A DNA stretch of 64,000 nucleotides from Chromatiales bacterium (GTDB lineage Bacteria; Pseudomonadota; Gammaproteobacteria; JAGRGH01), in contig JAGRGH010000063.1 in the NCBI GenBank assembly GCA_020445605.1, forward strand, positions 62,001-126,000, given 5' to 3'. Positions within the stretch are counted from its first letter, which is position 1. Each line of letters begins with the position of its first letter. The notes beneath the pieces are model-generated. The model did not search any database and was not told where the DNA came from. It was given only the letters and a program-made list of their open reading frames with translations. The position numbers and the translations under genes were made by a program. Below are positions 2,216-63,884 of this stretch, piece after piece.

Positions 2216-2222
2216 GGCTTAA

Positions 2223-2384: not shown

Positions 2385-2960
2385 TCAACGCTGCTTCCAG
2401 CTGCCGCCGGACCGCAGCCACCAACCCTTGCGCATTTCCCGGACCCACTCCGCAGCGAAGGTGCGCTGGATCTCCCCGGCCCACTCCGGATGATTGTTGG
2501 CGCTCGCGATCACGCGATAGAGCTTCTGCCGATCGGCGTTCTCGCCGTCCACGAGCTTGTTCACGCGCGCGCGATCGCGCAGTTCCAGGCCAGCGGCATC
2601 GCGCACCGCAATCAACGCATCGTCCGTGAAACCGACCGCGCCGGATTCATAGAACGGCAGCAGTTCGGCATGCCGGGTACGCATGCTTGCGCGCACCTGG
2701 CGAATCTCGGGAGAGTCGATGTCGAGCTTGGCGTCCGCGGCATGCGCGGCCGGAAACACCACCGCCAGCAGTCGATCGATCGCACGACCGAGTTCGTTCA
2801 CGGCACCGGTCTCGCCGGGACCGCGCTGGCGCAGGATGTCCTCGACGATTTCACGCGCGGCCTTCTCGGCCTCCGCGGACGGAAAGTAGACATTGATCGT
2901 CACACAGGCCGACGACACGAATACCAGGCCCGCAAGGGCCAAGCGCTGAATTGAAAACAT
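2385..2960 (-). CDS. ydbL: YdbL-like DUF1318 lipoprotein
   Basis: A 191-residue protein with signal peptide and lipobox VSSAC directly followed by VTINVYFPSAEAEKAA. The C-terminal half is the DUF1318 domain (SMRTRHAELLPFYESGAVG, then AVRDAAGLELRDRARVNKLV and GWWLR). In Escherichia coli the ydbH-ynbE-ydbL operon encodes an AsmA-like envelope bridge, a small outer-membrane lipoprotein and a chaperone-like partner. Here only two genes are present, and this one is a lipoprotein, so it may combine YnbE-like and YdbL-like roles (inference). The ATG at 2960 is chosen because AGGTG lies nine bases upstream; a GTG four codons earlier lacks a ribosome site. It starts 26 bases after the ydbH-like gene ends. 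Confidence 0.75.
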   Translation of the reverse strand: MFSIQRLALAGLVFVSSACVTINVYFPSAEAEKAAREIVEDILRQRGPGETGAVNELGRAIDRLLAVVFPAAHAADAKLDIDSPEIRQVRASMRTRHAELLPFYESGAVGFTDDALIAVRDAAGLELRDRARVNKLVDGENADRQKLYRVIASANNHPEWAGEIQRTFAAEWVREMRKGWWLRSGGSWKQR

Positions 2961-2986
2961 CTGTGTAAGCACCTGAGAGACCAGTT

Positions 2987-6032: not shown

Positions 6033-7385
6033 CTACTCGGCCGTGCGCGCCGCCGGTGGCGGCGGCGGGAGCCACGGTCCGGGCGCCGGCGGCGGCCCCC
6101 AGTAGCCCGGCGCCGTATAGTACGGGCGCGGCCAGTATCCGGGCGGCGCATATCCCGGCGGCGGCGGGGGTGGCGGAACCGCATCACGCACGTCCGGCGG
6201 CTGCGGTGCAACTGGCGGCTCCGCGACCGGACGCCACTTGGGCATCTCCGGAGGCTCCGGCATCTCCGGCGGCTCCGGCATCTCCGGGGGTTGCGGCGGC
6301 TCCGGCATGGTCGGCGGTTCCGGCAGCGGCGGCATCTCCGGGGGTTGCGGCCGTTCCGGCATGGTCGGCGGTGCGGGCGGCTCCGGCAGCGGCGGCACTT
6401 CCGGAGGCTCGGCCATCGGGCGCCACTTCGGCATCTCCGGCGGTTTGGGCGGCGGCGGCATCGCCGGCGGCTCCGGTAACGGCGGCAGATCGGGTGGCTC
6501 CGGGCGCACGGGCGGCGCCGGCGGCTCGGCCATCGGGCGCCACTTCGGCATCTGCGGTGGTTCGGGCAGCGGCGGCATCTCCGGGGGCTGCGGCCGTTCC
6601 GGCATGACCGGCGGTGCGGGCGGCTCCGGCAGCGGCGGCATCGCGGGCGGCCTGGGCCACTCGGTCATCCGCGGCGGCAGCGGTTCAGGGCGACCGGGTG
6701 CTGGCACGGGACGGTTCAACGGCCTGCCGAGAACAGGCGGTTCCGGCGGCGGCGGGATCCCGCCCATCGTCGGCAGCTCGGGGGGTGGTGGAACAACCGG
6801 CACTGGCGGTGGCTCGGGCGCCGGCTCGCGCATCACCGATTTCACGCGTGCGACGAAGTCGTCCAGCCCGCCCTTGGCCACACCAACGGATCCGGTTCCT
6901 TCAGCCGCCGCAGCATCGGCCGACGCCGCCGGCACGACTGCCTTCGCGGCATCCGCGACTGCGGGCGGACTGGGTGCCTGATCCGCGACGACCGCACCAC
7001 CGGGCTCGGACGCGCCGGACTGCGTGGACTGGGTGTGCCGCTCGTCGAGGCACGAGCGCACAAGCACGATCAGCACAATCATCGCGATGACCCAGGCGAT
7101 GAACTTGGGCCAGAATCCGTTGGGTCGATCCTCCAGTTCGAACGCCTCCGCCGGGGCCTCCTGGATGATCGGCTCGGCAGCAGCCGGCGTGGCTTCGACC
7201 GGGGCCGCCGCTGGTGGCGGAGCAGCCGGCTTGGCCGTCGGCGCGGCCGGCGCCTTTTTCTTGGCGGCCGCCTTCTTGGGCGCAGCCTTCTTCGCCGCAG
7301 CCTTCTTCTTTACCGTGGATTTCTTCTTCGGGGCGGCTTTCTTGGCCGGCGGCGTTGCGCCGGGCTTGTCGTCTTCGTCGGCCAT
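6033..7385 (-). CDS. Proline-rich membrane-anchored repeat protein
   Basis: A 450-residue protein of unusual design; no family is recognised. Residues 1-60 are lysine/alanine/proline-rich like bacterial histone H1-type tails (KKAAPKKKS, KKAAAKKKAP). A single membrane segment lies at about 93-110 (FIAWVIAMIVLIVLV) and is followed by a linker. Residues 190-450 are more than one-third proline. PPLPEPP recurs at 250, 271, 301, 331 and 352, and PKWRP(M/V)AEPP recurs three times. A 17-residue block (MPERPQPPEMPPLPEPP) at 261 returns at 342. The layout suggests a cytoplasmic basic tail, one membrane pass and a stiff periplasmic rod like the TonB linker, but no TonB domain is present. The C-terminus is tyrosine-, glycine- and tryptophan-rich (GYWPRPYYTAPGYWG). 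Confidence 0.75.
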   Translation of the reverse strand: MADEDDKPGATPPAKKAAPKKKSTVKKKAAAKKAAPKKAAAKKKAPAAPTAKPAAPPPAAAPVEATPAAAEPIIQEAPAEAFELEDRPNGFWPKFIAWVIAMIVLIVLVRSCLDERHTQSTQSGASEPGGAVVADQAPSPPAVADAAKAVVPAASADAAAAEGTGSVGVAKGGLDDFVARVKSVMREPAPEPPPVPVVPPPPELPTMGGIPPPPEPPVLGRPLNRPVPAPGRPEPLPPRMTEWPRPPAMPPLPEPPAPPVMPERPQPPEMPPLPEPPQMPKWRPMAEPPAPPVRPEPPDLPPLPEPPAMPPPPKPPEMPKWRPMAEPPEVPPLPEPPAPPTMPERPQPPEMPPLPEPPTMPEPPQPPEMPEPPEMPEPPEMPKWRPVAEPPVAPQPPDVRDAVPPPPPPPGYAPPGYWPRPYYTAPGYWGPPPAPGPWLPPPPPAARTAE

Positions 7386-24718: not shown

Positions 24719-24940
24719 ATGGCCAACGTACTCGTACATATCGACGAAACCCTGCCCGCGGCCGAACTCGACCGCCTGCAGCGGGATGTATCGCAACGCG
24801 ACGGAATCATCAGCGCCTGCGTCAGCGACCGAGCCCAGCATCTGATGATCGTGGATTTCGACCACGCACGACTGCGCACCGCCGACGTGCTCGGCGAAGT
24901 GCGCGCCCACGGCCTGCACGCCGAACTGCTGGGGCTTTAA
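24719..24940 (+). CDS. 73-residue protein, possible metal-free HMA-like fold
   Basis: A short protein with a strong ribosome site (GGAGGA five bases upstream of ATG). The pattern VLVHIDETLPAAELDRLQRD, then GIISACVSDRAQHLMIVDFD, then TADVLGEVRAHGLHAELLGL reads as strand-helix-strand-strand-helix-strand, like heavy-metal-associated (HMA) domains. The CxxC metal site is missing; the single cysteine is not in that loop. No function is assigned. The stop codon TAA is followed at once by copy 2 of the 162-bp element. A GC-rich 209-bp stretch with hairpins separates it from the LysR gene upstream. Confidence 0.7.
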   Translation: MANVLVHIDETLPAAELDRLQRDVSQRDGIISACVSDRAQHLMIVDFDHARLRTADVLGEVRAHGLHAELLGL

Positions 24941-25102
24941 CAGGATGTTGAAAAAGGCCCATCCATGGCCTTTTCAACGTCGCAACCGAAAAGCGTGGTT
25001 TTCGGTTGCCTCCGAAAATCCAACACTTGCATGTTCGATTTTCGGGCGAGACGTCCCTGTCTCGCGTGATCAGGCTGTTGAAATGAGAATTTCAACAGCC
25101 TG
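24941..25102 (+). repeat. 162-bp MITE-like hairpin element, copy 2
   Basis: Same length and orientation as the other copies, with 15 differences from copy 3 by hand count and no gaps. It begins CAGGATGTTGAAAAAGGCC directly after the TAA stop of the 73-residue gene and ends TTTCAACAGCCTG. A near-perfect first hairpin spans 24947-24978 and the CAACCGAAAA/TTTTCGGTTG hairpin follows. The last hairpin has a 14-bp perfect stem with a GAGA loop (25071-25102). The left flank is TTAA and the right flank is GCAA. Confidence 0.9.
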
Positions 25103-25147
25103 GCAACCCGTCGCATCGCACCCGGGCCGACCCGCGCGGGCCGGCCG

Positions 25148-52680: not shown

Positions 52681-52700
52681 GTGGGCAATCGAGGCACTAG

Positions 52701-52862
52701 CAGGTTGTTGAAAAAGGCCCGTCCATGGCCTTTTCAACATCGCAACCGAAAAGCGCGGTTTTCGGTTGCTCACGAAAATCGAACACTTGGGTGTTCGATT
52801 TTCGGGCGCGACGTCCCTGTCTCGCGATATCAGGCTGTTGAAATTAAAATTTCAACAGCCTG
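52701..52862 (+). repeat. 162-bp MITE-like hairpin element, copy 3
   Basis: The best preserved copy. Flanking CTAG on both sides is an exact 4-bp direct repeat; the right CTAG includes the TAG stop of phaC (minus strand). Ends are inverted (CAGGTTGTTGAAAA and TTTTCAACAGCCTG, one mismatch). Hairpins in order: 52707-52738, 52743-52768 (10-bp stem), 52773-52804 (14-bp perfect stem, CGAAAATCGAACAC), 52806-52825 (one mismatch) and 52831-52862 (14-bp perfect stem, TAAA loop). Confidence 0.92.
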
Positions 52863-53930
52863 CTAGCCGCGCTTGTCCAGCCACTCGCCGATCGCCGGCG
52901 GCACCTGCGCCATTGCACCGCCGCTGACGAAGATGCCGATGTGGCCGCCGCGGAACGCCAGTTCGCGGTAGTCCTTCGTGCCGACGTGCTTGCGCAGGGC
53001 CAACGATGCGGCCGGCGGCACGAGGTGGTCCTTCTCGGCGTAGACGTTGAACACGGGCATGTCGACCGCACCCAGATCGACGGTGCGCGCGCCGATCTTC
53101 AGCTCGCCCTTGATCAGCAGATTGCGCTGATACAGGTCACGGATGAACTGACGAAACGCCTCGCCGGCCTGGTCGGGGCTGTCGAAAATCCATTTTTCCA
53201 TGCGCATGAAGTTCTTGAGCTTGTCGGGCTCCTGCATGAGATCGACCGCGTCGATGTACTTCTGGCCGGCCATGCGGAACGGCTGCATGGACAGGAACGT
53301 CGCGTTCATGAGATCGCCCGGAATGTTGCCGAGCGTATCGACGAGCAGGTCGACGTTCAGGCACTGCGACCAGCGGCTCAGCAGGTTGTCCGGCGTCTGA
53401 AAGTCGACGGGCGTGACCATGGTCACGAGGTTGCGTACCTTGCGTGGATGCAGCGCGCTGTAGCACAGGCTCAGCGTGCCGCCCTGGCAGATGCCGAGCA
53501 GGTTCATGTCCTTGCGGCCATGCGCCTTGAGGATGTGATCCACACAGCTGTCGATGTATCCGTTGATGTAGTCGTCGAGGGTGATCCAGCGATCGGCCGC
53601 GTCCGGATAGCCCCAGTCGATGAGATAGACGTCCTGCCCGGCCTCGAGCAGTCCGCGGATCATGGAGCGGTCTTCCTGCAGATCGGTCATGTACGGGCGG
53701 TTCACAAGCGCATACACGACCAGCGTCGGCACCTTCGAACGCTTGACGCCGGCCGGCGTCGCGTAGCGATAAAGCGTCACCTTGTCATCGCGAAACACCG
53801 CCTCGCGCGTGCTCACGCCGGTGCTGATCTCATCGAGCTCGCTCAGGTTTTTCAGGCCCACGGCGAGCTTGCGGTTGAACTCGGCGACTTCCTGAATCAT
53901 GGTCGCGCCGTTTGCATTCGGGTTCGTCAT
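52863..53930 (-). CDS. phaC: Class III polyhydroxyalkanoate synthase subunit PhaC
   Basis: A 355-residue catalytic subunit that polymerises 3-hydroxyacyl-CoA on the granule surface. The lipase-like box is LLGICQGGTLSL with nucleophile Cys148; Asp301 (YAEKDHLVPP) and His330 (RGGHIGIFV) complete the triad, each one residue from the Allochromatium positions. The short length is typical of class III, which needs PhaE. It lies 15 bases after phaE. Its stop codon TAG forms part of the CTAG flank of element copy 3. Confidence 0.97.
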   Translation of the reverse strand: MTNPNANGATMIQEVAEFNRKLAVGLKNLSELDEISTGVSTREAVFRDDKVTLYRYATPAGVKRSKVPTLVVYALVNRPYMTDLQEDRSMIRGLLEAGQDVYLIDWGYPDAADRWITLDDYINGYIDSCVDHILKAHGRKDMNLLGICQGGTLSLCYSALHPRKVRNLVTMVTPVDFQTPDNLLSRWSQCLNVDLLVDTLGNIPGDLMNATFLSMQPFRMAGQKYIDAVDLMQEPDKLKNFMRMEKWIFDSPDQAGEAFRQFIRDLYQRNLLIKGELKIGARTVDLGAVDMPVFNVYAEKDHLVPPAASLALRKHVGTKDYRELAFRGGHIGIFVSGGAMAQVPPAIGEWLDKRG

Positions 53931-56406: not shown

Positions 56407-57135
56407 ATGAACATGGCAAGAGTGGCTCTGGTCACGGGCGGGACCCGTGGCATCGGCGAGGCGATCTCGCTGGCACTGCGCGACGCTGGATATACCGTGG
56501 TCGCGAACTACGCCGGCAACGATGACGCCGCGCGCGCCTTCAGCGAACGCACCGGCATCAAGACCCAGAAGTTCGACGTCGGCGACTTCGAGGCCGTTCA
56601 GGCTGCGGTCGCACAGATCGAGCGCGACGTCGGCCCCGTCGACGTGCTAATCAACAACGCCGGCATCACACGCGACGGCACGCTGCAAAAGATGACGTTC
56701 GAACAGTGGAACGCCGTGCTGCAGACGAACCTGACCTCGTGCTTCAACACCTGTCGCGCGGTGATCGACGGCATGCGCGAGCGCGGTTTCGGCCGCGTGG
56801 TGAACATCGGCTCGGTCAACGGCCAGGCCGGCCAGTACGGGCAGGTCAACTACGCGGCGGCCAAATCCGGCATCCACGGCTTCACCAAGGCGCTGGCGCA
56901 GGAAGGCGCGGCCAAGGGCATCACCGTCAACGCGATCGCCCCGGGCTACATCAATACGGACATGGTCCGTGCCGTGCCCGAGAAAGTACTCGAGAAGATC
57001 GTCGCGCGCATCCCGGTCGGCCGGCTCGGCGAGGCCTCCGAAATCGCACGCGGCGTGCTGTTCCTCGTCTCGGACGACGCCGGCTTCATCACCGGCTCGA
57101 CCCTGTCGATCAACGGCGGCCAGCACATGTACTGA
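56407..57135 (+). CDS. phaB: Acetoacetyl-CoA reductase
   Basis: A 242-residue short-chain dehydrogenase that reduces acetoacetyl-CoA to (R)-3-hydroxybutyryl-CoA, usually with NADPH. The cofactor loop is VTGGTRGIGEAI, the SDR motif NNAGITRDGTLQKM is typical of PhaB, and the catalytic Ser-Tyr-Lys lie in IGSVNGQAGQYGQVNYAAAK. A GAGGAGG site precedes the ATG at 56407 by three to six bases; ATG at 56413 is an alternative with better spacing (about 10 bases). Confidence 0.96.
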   Translation: MNMARVALVTGGTRGIGEAISLALRDAGYTVVANYAGNDDAARAFSERTGIKTQKFDVGDFEAVQAAVAQIERDVGPVDVLINNAGITRDGTLQKMTFEQWNAVLQTNLTSCFNTCRAVIDGMRERGFGRVVNIGSVNGQAGQYGQVNYAAAKSGIHGFTKALAQEGAAKGITVNAIAPGYINTDMVRAVPEKVLEKIVARIPVGRLGEASEIARGVLFLVSDDAGFITGSTLSINGGQHMY

Positions 57136-58418: not shown

Positions 58419-59174
58419 ATGGAAGCCCCGGTGACCCGCGTCGCGCTGGTCACGGGCGGCATCGGGGGCATTGGCACCGCGATCTGCCGTCGGATGGCCA
58501 GGGAAGGCCATCGCGTGGTCGCGACCTACCATCCGGCCGAGGCCGACCAGGCGCTGGCCTGGCAGGCCGCGGAACGCGAGGCCGGCGCCGACGTCCACAT
58601 CGCCCCCGTTGATGTCAGCTCGTTCGACTCCTGCCGCGATCTGATCAGCAAGGTCAGCGCCGAACTCGGCCCCGTGGACATTCTCGTCAACGGCGCCGGC
58701 ATCACGCGTGACAAGACGCTGAAGAAAATGGACCCCGAGCAGTGGCGTGCCGTGCTGTCGACCAATCTCGACAGCGTGTTCAACGTCACCAAGCACGTGA
58801 TCGACAGCATGGTCGACCGTGGTTTCGGGCGCGTTGTGAACATCTCGTCGGTCAACGGCCAGAAAGGCCAGTTCGGCCAGACGAATTACTCGTCGGCGAA
58901 GGCCGGCATGCTTGGCTTCACGATGTCGCTGGCGCAGGAAGTCGCGACCAAGGGCGTGACCGTCAACGCGATCTCGCCGGGCTACATCGACACGCCGATG
59001 ACTGCCGCCATGCCCGATGACATCCGCAACGCAATCGTCGCCGGCATTCCGCTGCGCCGCATGGGCACGCCCGACGACATTGCCAACGCCGTCGCGTTCC
59101 TGATTTCCGGCGACTCGGACTACATCACCGGCGTGAACCTGCCGGTCAATGGCGGGATGTTCATGAGCTGCTGA
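58419..59174 (+). CDS. phaB: Second acetoacetyl-CoA reductase-like SDR
   Basis: A 251-residue short-chain dehydrogenase close to the first PhaB. The cofactor loop is VTGGIGGIGTAI, the PhaB-type segment is GAGITRDKTLKKMD, and the catalytic residues lie in ISSVNGQKGQFGQTNYSSAK. It differs from the first copy in the loop after the cofactor site (TYHPAEADQALAWQA), which may alter cofactor or chain-length preference. Three bases separate it from the phasin stop, so it would be induced with granule formation. A strong terminator follows. Confidence 0.88.
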   Translation: MEAPVTRVALVTGGIGGIGTAICRRMAREGHRVVATYHPAEADQALAWQAAEREAGADVHIAPVDVSSFDSCRDLISKVSAELGPVDILVNGAGITRDKTLKKMDPEQWRAVLSTNLDSVFNVTKHVIDSMVDRGFGRVVNISSVNGQKGQFGQTNYSSAKAGMLGFTMSLAQEVATKGVTVNAISPGYIDTPMTAAMPDDIRNAIVAGIPLRRMGTPDDIANAVAFLISGDSDYITGVNLPVNGGMFMSC

Positions 59175-61967: not shown

Positions 61968-63884
61968 TCACGCGCGCCGGGACCAAGTCCGGCGCAAACC
62001 GAACAGTCCCAACAGACCCGAAAGCATCAGCAGGGTCCATGGTGCGAACACGGGCACCGGATACGGTTGATCCTGAATGGTCAGGATCGCGGTCGGGATA
62101 CCGCCCAGCACGGCCCCGCCGGTCGGCCCGCCCAAGCTCAGGTTGATGGTTTCCGGCAGTTCCTTATAGGAGTCGGAAACGATCGGCACGATGAAGGTCT
62201 TGTTCGAGCCGTCACCATGCGGCCAGTTCAACACGCCGAACGAGTTCAGATAGTCATCGGGATTCACGGCCGTGCCATCGGCGGTCGCATACATGACCGA
62301 GACCGGACCCGAGGTGCCGCCCGTGCGAGTGACCGTGATCAGCGCGGATGGGACACCTTCGACGACCAGGTACGTCGGCGAGCTGAACTGCAACGCGCCG
62401 GCCGGCGGAATGTCGTTGTCGACGATCGAGAGCACGGCGGTCGACTGCGTGCCCAGGATCGCGCCGCCGGTCGGGCCGCTCAGGCTGAGATTCAGCGGCT
62501 CGTCGCCTTCGATGTCCGGATCGTCGGTGATCGGCACATCGAAGGTCTTGGCCGCGCTGTCGCCGTCGCCCCACATCAGCACAGATGCCACGGCGGTGTA
62601 ATCACTGCCATCCAGCGCAACATCGTCGGCGGTCGCGTAACTGACCGATACCATGCCGCTGCTGCCGCCCGTGCGGGTCACGGTGATGGTGGCCATGCCG
62701 GCACCTTCGTTCACGCTGTAGACCGGCGCACTGAACTGCAGGGCACCGCCGGGCGGAACGTCGTTGTCCTGGATCGTCAGGATCGCCGCGCCGTTCGGAC
62801 CGATCGCCGCGCCACCCGTGGGGGCGGAAAGTGCGAGATTGACCGTTTCGTCCCCTTCGGCATCGGCGTCGTTGGTGACTGGCACGTTGAAGGTCTTCGA
62901 GGCGGTATTGCCTGGGCCCCAGAACAACACGCCTGCGACCCCGCTGTAGTCCGCACCGGCCGTCGCGCTGCCGTCCGCGGTCTGGTAGCCGACCGAGACG
63001 CTGCCGGCCGAACCGCCGGTGCGCGTAACGGTGATCAGCGCGGACACGCCGGCTTCGCTGACGACATAGGTCGGCGAGCTGAACTGCAAGACACCCGGCA
63101 GCAGAGATGGATCTTCGAGCGCAGCCAATGCGTCGAGATCAGCGGGCGCCCAGGTCGCGTGTTCCGCCGAACCGTCGTAGGCCATTTCCCAGGTCGGCCC
63201 GGCCGGGTCGTACTCGATCACGTCCTCATCGTCGAACGCGACGCCGCCGACCGACTCGCTGGCATCAAACGAAACCAGCAGGTGGCCGTTGGCAAGTACG
63301 TGTGCGCCATCGAGGTCCAGCGCGTCCGGCACACTGGCGGCAGAGGCATCGAAGAACAGGCTGTACGCGCCGTCGTAGCGCACGATATCGGCATCGTCCG
63401 CCGTGACGGCGCCGACGATGACCGTGGTATCGAAAGACAGCAGCAGGGCCCCGTCGGTACCAAGCGCGATCGCGTCGATCTGCGCACCGGGCGGCACGCC
63501 GAGGTTGCTGCCGTCGAAATCGATCGTGAAATTCACGCCGTCGTAACGCACCACATCGCGCGACTCGGCCGTGACGAATCCGACCGTGACCGTGGTATCG
63601 AATGCCAGGAGCTGATCGCCGTTCGGCAGCGCATGGTAGCCGACGATATCCGCCCCGCCGGGAATGGTGCCGACATCCAGTGCCGTGACCGTGCCCCCCA
63701 GATCGTCCGATGCCGCGTCCTCGTCATCGAGCGTGACGCCGCCCAGGGTGACGGTCACATCCGGCGAGTAGCGCACCTCGGCGAGCGGAGTGGCCGCGAA
63801 AGCCGCCGCCGGAGCGAAACAAGCTGCGAGCAAAATCCCTGGCAGGAACCCGGTACCCAGTGCGCGATGCAGTGCGTGTTTCAC
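61968..63884 (-). CDS. Calx-beta repeat surface protein with sorting-type tail
   Basis: A 638-residue secreted protein. A signal peptide (LPGILLAACFAPAAAFA) leads to an N-terminal region with three repeats of the form LLxFDTTVxVGxVTAxxxDIVRYDG, probably part of a propeller or beta-solenoid. Three tandem Calx-beta domains follow at about 300-600, each with ITVTRTGGxxGxVSVxY and ending DNDxPPxGALQFSxP. Calx-beta domains bind calcium and occur in adhesins. The C-terminus (VPVFAPWTLLMLSGLLGLFG, then LRRTWSRRA) has a sorting-signal layout. GTG 63884 has GAGG nine bases upstream; a longer start at 63977 adds an unlikely extension. Confidence 0.85.
   Translation of the reverse strand: MKHALHRALGTGFLPGILLAACFAPAAAFAATPLAEVRYSPDVTVTLGGVTLDDEDAASDDLGGTVTALDVGTIPGGADIVGYHALPNGDQLLAFDTTVTVGFVTAESRDVVRYDGVNFTIDFDGSNLGVPPGAQIDAIALGTDGALLLSFDTTVIVGAVTADDADIVRYDGAYSLFFDASAASVPDALDLDGAHVLANGHLLVSFDASESVGGVAFDDEDVIEYDPAGPTWEMAYDGSAEHATWAPADLDALAALEDPSLLPGVLQFSSPTYVVSEAGVSALITVTRTGGSAGSVSVGYQTADGSATAGADYSGVAGVLFWGPGNTASKTFNVPVTNDADAEGDETVNLALSAPTGGAAIGPNGAAILTIQDNDVPPGGALQFSAPVYSVNEGAGMATITVTRTGGSSGMVSVSYATADDVALDGSDYTAVASVLMWGDGDSAAKTFDVPITDDPDIEGDEPLNLSLSGPTGGAILGTQSTAVLSIVDNDIPPAGALQFSSPTYLVVEGVPSALITVTRTGGTSGPVSVMYATADGTAVNPDDYLNSFGVLNWPHGDGSNKTFIVPIVSDSYKELPETINLSLGGPTGGAVLGGIPTAILTIQDQPYPVPVFAPWTLLMLSGLLGLFGLRRTWSRRA

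Follow-up and report, generated by a model that had tools for sequence, protein, structure and literature searches.

Why should three copies of one small repeat each lie with an end directly after the stop codon of a gene? In the 64,000-nucleotide stretch of DNA analysed here, which we call the window, a 162-bp gene-less element is present three times, with flanks that read TTAA/TCAA, TTAA/GCAA, and CTAG/CTAG. In each copy one end immediately follows a stop codon, which is TGA for copy 1, TAA for copy 2, and TAG for copy 3. The original prediction had described these flanks and stops correctly, and had proposed that the stop codon forms part of the element's target site. The features of the three sites, in window coordinates, are as follows.

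2219..2222, unstranded: left target duplication of copy 1, TTAA
2223..2384, plus strand: element copy 1, 162 bp (L095:3524-3685)
2385..2388, unstranded: right target duplication of copy 1, TCAA, a decayed TTAA; TTGA on the minus strand, which gives the TGA stop
2385..2972, minus strand: DUF1318/YdbL-like gene, whose TGA stop adjoins the right end of copy 1
24719..24940, plus strand: 73-residue gene, whose TAA adjoins the left end of copy 2
24937..24940, unstranded: left target duplication of copy 2, TTAA, stop codon included
24941..25102, plus strand: element copy 2, 162 bp (L096:3542-3703)
24941..24955, plus strand: left terminal inverted repeat of copy 2, CAGGATGTTGAAAAA
24944..24981, plus strand: predicted hairpin 1 of copy 2
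24982..25009, plus strand: predicted hairpin 2 of copy 2
25012..25045, plus strand: predicted hairpin 3 of copy 2
25046..25065, plus strand: predicted hairpin 4 of copy 2
25071..25102, plus strand: predicted hairpin 5 of copy 2, the 32-nt terminal palindrome CAGGCTGTTGAAAT..ATTTCAACAGCCTG, with the right terminal inverted repeat inside
25103..25106, unstranded: right target duplication of copy 2, GCAA, decayed
52697..52700, unstranded: left target duplication of copy 3, CTAG
52701..52862, plus strand: element copy 3, 162 bp (L097:3502-3663)
52863..52866, unstranded: right target duplication of copy 3, CTAG, which holds the phaC TAG (minus strand)
52863..53930, minus strand: PhaC-like (alpha/beta hydrolase) gene, whose TAG adjoins the right end of copy 3

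The short gene next to copy 2 required separate attention. Its 73-residue product gave no Pfam match; homologues occur in 32 of the 184 genomes searched, the source genome included, and 11 orthologues in other genomes are free of the element and have the same end point. Judged from these sequences, the gene is genuine. Because the element-free orthologues share its end, its stop predates the insertion, which cost it no coding sequence.

Pattern and similarity searches combined with an HMM gathered about 80 copies of the element in this genome of 3.36 Mb; 55 are full-length, and strongly decayed copies may have escaped the collection. The element has the properties by which a MITE is recognized: it is multicopy, leaves no room in its 162 bp for a transposase gene, carries terminal inverted repeats (CAGGYTGTTGAA) at both of its ends, which read CAGGNTGTTGAAAAA, and is bordered by a 4-bp target duplication. 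The two flanks are identical in 17 of the 55 full-length copies and differ by at most one mismatch in 42 of 55. Pairs such as TTAG/TTAG and CTAA/CTAA are non-palindromic and are therefore true duplications. Column composition and the table of flanks both give the motif as YTAR, which is the sequence duplicated by IS5 (PMC10359306), and the earlier proposal of a 4-bp target of IS5 type is thus borne out. In the orientation of the element, the base just before the left YTAR is C in 34 of the 55 full-length copies, with no matching excess of G after the right YTAR. Six copies (in L063, L077, L087, L122, and two in L101) pair a YTAA-type flank with YTCA, or TGAR on the opposite strand, at the other end; the same transversion of the central TA is seen each time.

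The element is MITE-like and of an already known type, as a comparison with MITEPsy1 of Pseudomonas syringae illustrates. In the available part of its description (PMC3189936), MITEPsy1 is thought to derive from ISPsy2, and its insertions follow CTAG or YTAA and duplicate 4 bp. Both elements are short and gene-less, with terminal inverted repeats and a 4-bp duplication, whereas MITEPsy1 is 100 nt long rather than 162 and its repeats are GGAAGGTCTGAAAAAGCC rather than CAGGNTGTTGAAAAA; that part of the description reports no excess at stop codons. BOX elements of Streptococcus pneumoniae are likewise small repeats found at gene 3' ends, and they supply the stop codon for 36 coding sequences (PMC3049150). 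There, however, the repeat encodes the stop, whereas in the window element the stop precedes the repeat and belongs to the duplicated target. ERIC, RUP, and Correia repeats (PMC2229807) are similar in being 100-200 bp long, structured, mostly intergenic, and bounded by TA, and RUP has been tied to IS630-Spn1 and TA-containing targets (PMC2229807); they differ in their ends and sizes, the ends and 4-bp target of the window element being IS5-like. A search of the available literature for the end sequence of the element returned nothing relevant.

How often the element truly abuts a stop codon was determined from our own gene calls, made with an in-frame hexamer model that had been trained on long ORFs. 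On these calls, 20 of the 55 full-length copies (36%) adjoin a stop exactly, with the left or the right end of the element on the stop side equally often (10:10). The other 35 lie at varied distances, for the most part no more than 60 nt from a stop. The claim that the ends fall exactly after stops thus holds for all three copies in the window and for only 20 of 55 in the genome at large; likewise, a target containing the stop codon describes about one third of the insertions and is not the rule. Tabulating the distance to the nearest stop was the test that the original prediction had set for itself, and the varied distances of the 35 off-stop copies count against it. As background we took the free YTAR sites in the same DNA whose use would break no gene (n=232), and 52 of these (22%) are gene stops in the source genome. 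Three stop-abutting copies out of three would be found in the window with a chance of about 1% at the background rate and 5% at the observed 36%; three of three in a single window overstated a 36% effect.

The distribution of occupied sites identifies what is actually enriched. Occupancy, the share of occupied sites among all occupied and free sites in the DNA read, is a relative measure only, the DNA and control sites having been chosen around elements. It is 28% at zero distance past the nearest facing stop, 25% at 1-10 nt, 29% at 11-30 nt, and 43% at 31-60 nt; further out it is 14% at 61-100 nt, 8% at 101-200 nt, and 5% beyond, distances at which uncalled genes might inflate the number of free sites. 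A direct comparison of the exact stop with sites 1-60 nt past it in the source genome gives an odds ratio (OR) of 0.7 (p=0.44). The excess therefore spans roughly the first 60 nt past the stop, and within this zone the stop itself is not special in this genome.

Two further samples were drawn from other genomes. Small elements in a GTDB collection abut a stop in 11 of 32 cases (34%), compared with 31 of 251 free sites (12%), and in six further genomes, where genes were called on the site after removal of the element, 15 of 39 usable elements do so (38%), compared with 35 of 238 free sites (15%). Genome G021 has 8 of its 14 usable copies at stops. When samples are pooled by the Mantel-Haenszel method, the exact stop is enriched against all other sites (OR 2.7, p=1.3e-6), as are the zone 0-60 nt past the stop against the rest (OR 3.1, p=2.5e-8) and sites at 1-60 nt against those beyond 60 nt (OR 2.4, p=3e-4). 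The exact stop against 1-60 nt gives a pooled OR of 1.5 (p=0.15), and borderline values in the two other-genome samples (OR 3.0, p=0.06; OR 2.7, p=0.04). The element has a modest bias toward gene 3' ends.

We consider it probable, at roughly 85%, that this is a MITE-like, non-autonomous IS5-type element whose positions at gene ends are explained by its YTAR target together with selection for harmless sites. A transposase acting in trans would recognize the CAGGNTGTTGAAA ends, insert at YTAR, and duplicate four bases; the duplication is evident in the flanks, and the transposase is what we infer. YTAR is rare in this genome of 65% GC, and about 22% of the sites outside coding interiors are the TAA or TAG of a gene, preceded by C or T. 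In the tolerated stretch just past genes, stop codons are the most frequent sites of this kind. Insertion at such a stop leaves one full YTAR, and thus the stop codon, on the gene, and the expectation that stop sites lose no coding sequence stands. Copies accordingly accumulate at stops and within the next 60 nt or so, where they presumably do least harm, probably through selection rather than targeting. Because sites 1-60 nt past the stop are used about as often as the stop itself, and because the two ends abut stops equally (10:10), the element appears to target YTAR; that the stop codon as such is the target, as had been proposed, is not supported.

Later, the stop-side duplication could drift from TAA or TAG to TGA, and the other duplication could decay freely. 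Among the 20 stop-abutting copies, four read TGA on the stop side with an intact YTAR on the other (L076 3601, L095, L099, and L103), a count biased in that copies that lost their stop are not counted as stop-abutting. Copy 1 is the one in L095, and these four copies lend support to the earlier suggestion that its TGA is a decayed TAA. The pattern fits drift among stop codons.

Other explanations deserve to be weighed against this reading. That the stop codon, or the termination of translation or transcription there, steers insertion beyond what the YTAR motif and selection achieve would accord with the pooled enrichment of abutment across three samples and with the borderline lean to the exact stop outside the source genome, G021 included. 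We nevertheless regard it as very unlikely, given the flat occupancy from 0 to 60 nt in the source genome, the 35 off-stop copies, and the fact that the commonest stop, TGA (331 of 482 called genes of at least 300 nt in the source genome), does not fit YTAR. A broader proposal is that insertion itself, and not survival alone, favours gene 3' ends, for example via transcription termination, hairpins, or DNA state there, which would make an IS5-type YTAR element a built-in safe-site inserter; this we consider unlikely. The preferred reading must itself accommodate the lean of the other-genome samples (OR 2.7-3.0, p 0.04-0.06), which makes a weak stop preference possible, as well as a putative partner transposase for which no match was found in the source genome. 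A scarcely credible alternative is that the element supplies the stop and genes merely seem to end there through truncation or read-in. In four full-length copies a flanking called gene does continue for 11 nt inside the element, as far as a TGA in the inverted repeat, but the stop-abutting copies have their stop inside the target site, before the element, and for copy 2 the shared end of the element-free orthologues refutes the idea.

The structure of the element suggests yet another possibility, which is that copies are retained because their hairpins act as 3'-end signals, whether terminators or protectors of mRNA ends, for the upstream gene. The element had indeed been expected to bring a 3'-end hairpin, and for copy 2 five hairpins are predicted on each strand, with a folding energy of about -85 kcal/mol and z of -11.1 and -10.2. 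Such strong folding on both strands, the excess just past stops, and the comparable roles discussed for other bacterial repeats (PMC10969869) speak for a signal of this kind. However, neither copy 2 nor its surroundings show an intrinsic terminator pattern or a match to a U-tract, on which ground a terminator role for copy 2 was rejected. Of 23 predicted pairs, just 3 show two-sided change in the alignment, and a constraint at the RNA level was likewise rejected; in addition, hairpins are missing from many copies. Left and right ends adjoin stops equally often (10:10), which argues against any orientation-dependent 3' signal. On balance we judge retention for this purpose quite unlikely. An Rfam scan of the window at gathering thresholds gave no match, nor did the exact inner-hairpin pattern in the genome contigs searched.

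The element provides a clean, quantified case in which a short target motif overlapping TAA and TAG allows a mobile element to occupy gene ends with coding sequence intact. Of 276 genomes of the class, 34 (12%) contain the pattern YTARCAGGNTGTTGAAAAA, and a reversed-pattern control gave none. Small elements with CAGGNTGTTGAAAAA ends form a widespread set, which can serve to tell target choice apart from selection. The same ends also appear in many phyla of the GTDB collection, where 43 end pairs have matching or nearly matching flanks; the element was not matched in a plasmid collection. These ends and the YTAR target are common to several families, and G021 (L137:1920-2060) holds a second family of small elements, alike in its ends but with a different middle.

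A source of mobility is suggested by longer elements of 1.29-1.5 kb that have these ends (CAGGNTGTTGA) and YTAR flanks and encode an IS5-family transposase of the NF033581 type, about 350-370 aa long. Examples are found in G039 (L140, 1.29 kb, CTAG on both sides), Methylophaga (L215, 1290 bp), and Sphingopyxis (L208, 1502 bp). They differ from the window element in size and in coding for a transposase, and the common ends mark the latter as an IS5-family derivative that was presumably moved in trans by a transposase of this type. In the source genome neither a PF01609 match nor any homologue of the G039 transposase turned up; the assembly has 63 contigs, some short ones only N, which bears on this absence. 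A cognate transposase in the same genome is not strictly required of a MITE family, and the partner may have been lost. Contigs C2, C4, C5, C8, C11, and C12 (1.0-1.6 kb) are apparently only N. IS1182-like (DUF772) transposase fragments lie at contig edges, in the first bases of C50 and C51 of the source assembly, G000 (L143 and L144); these were not adopted as the partner, as the stretches read have no CAGGNTGTTG ends.

Copies also vary internally. Five short ones (L105, L074, L076:10252-10380, L109, and L118) lack the last 36 bp, comprising an inner tetranucleotide and the 32-nt palindrome; they end at approximately ...CTCGCG and run directly into YTAR, and it looks as though the palindrome was deleted between short direct repeats. 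Other copies in the source genome have lost inner hairpins. The inner tetranucleotide itself, at element positions 127-130 (25067-25070 in copy 2), belongs to the most variable parts of the element. Viewed by eye in the alignment it tracks subfamilies, ATAT-like forms going with CAGGCTG and YYAA-like forms with CAGGCCG, and it looks structured accordingly. We abandoned the notion that the palindrome inserted separately and brought a duplication of its own: the inner tetranucleotide usually does not match the outer duplication, and it seems to vary by subfamily.

Other repeats are present in the window. A long array at 6219-6678 has spacings that are multiples of 9 bases, and 62273-63622 contains two repeat families with spacings of about 348 and 166 bases. 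Near the PhaC-like gene, 56422-57060 and 58440-59096 are diverged copies of one stretch, 73-78% identical and 2 kb apart.
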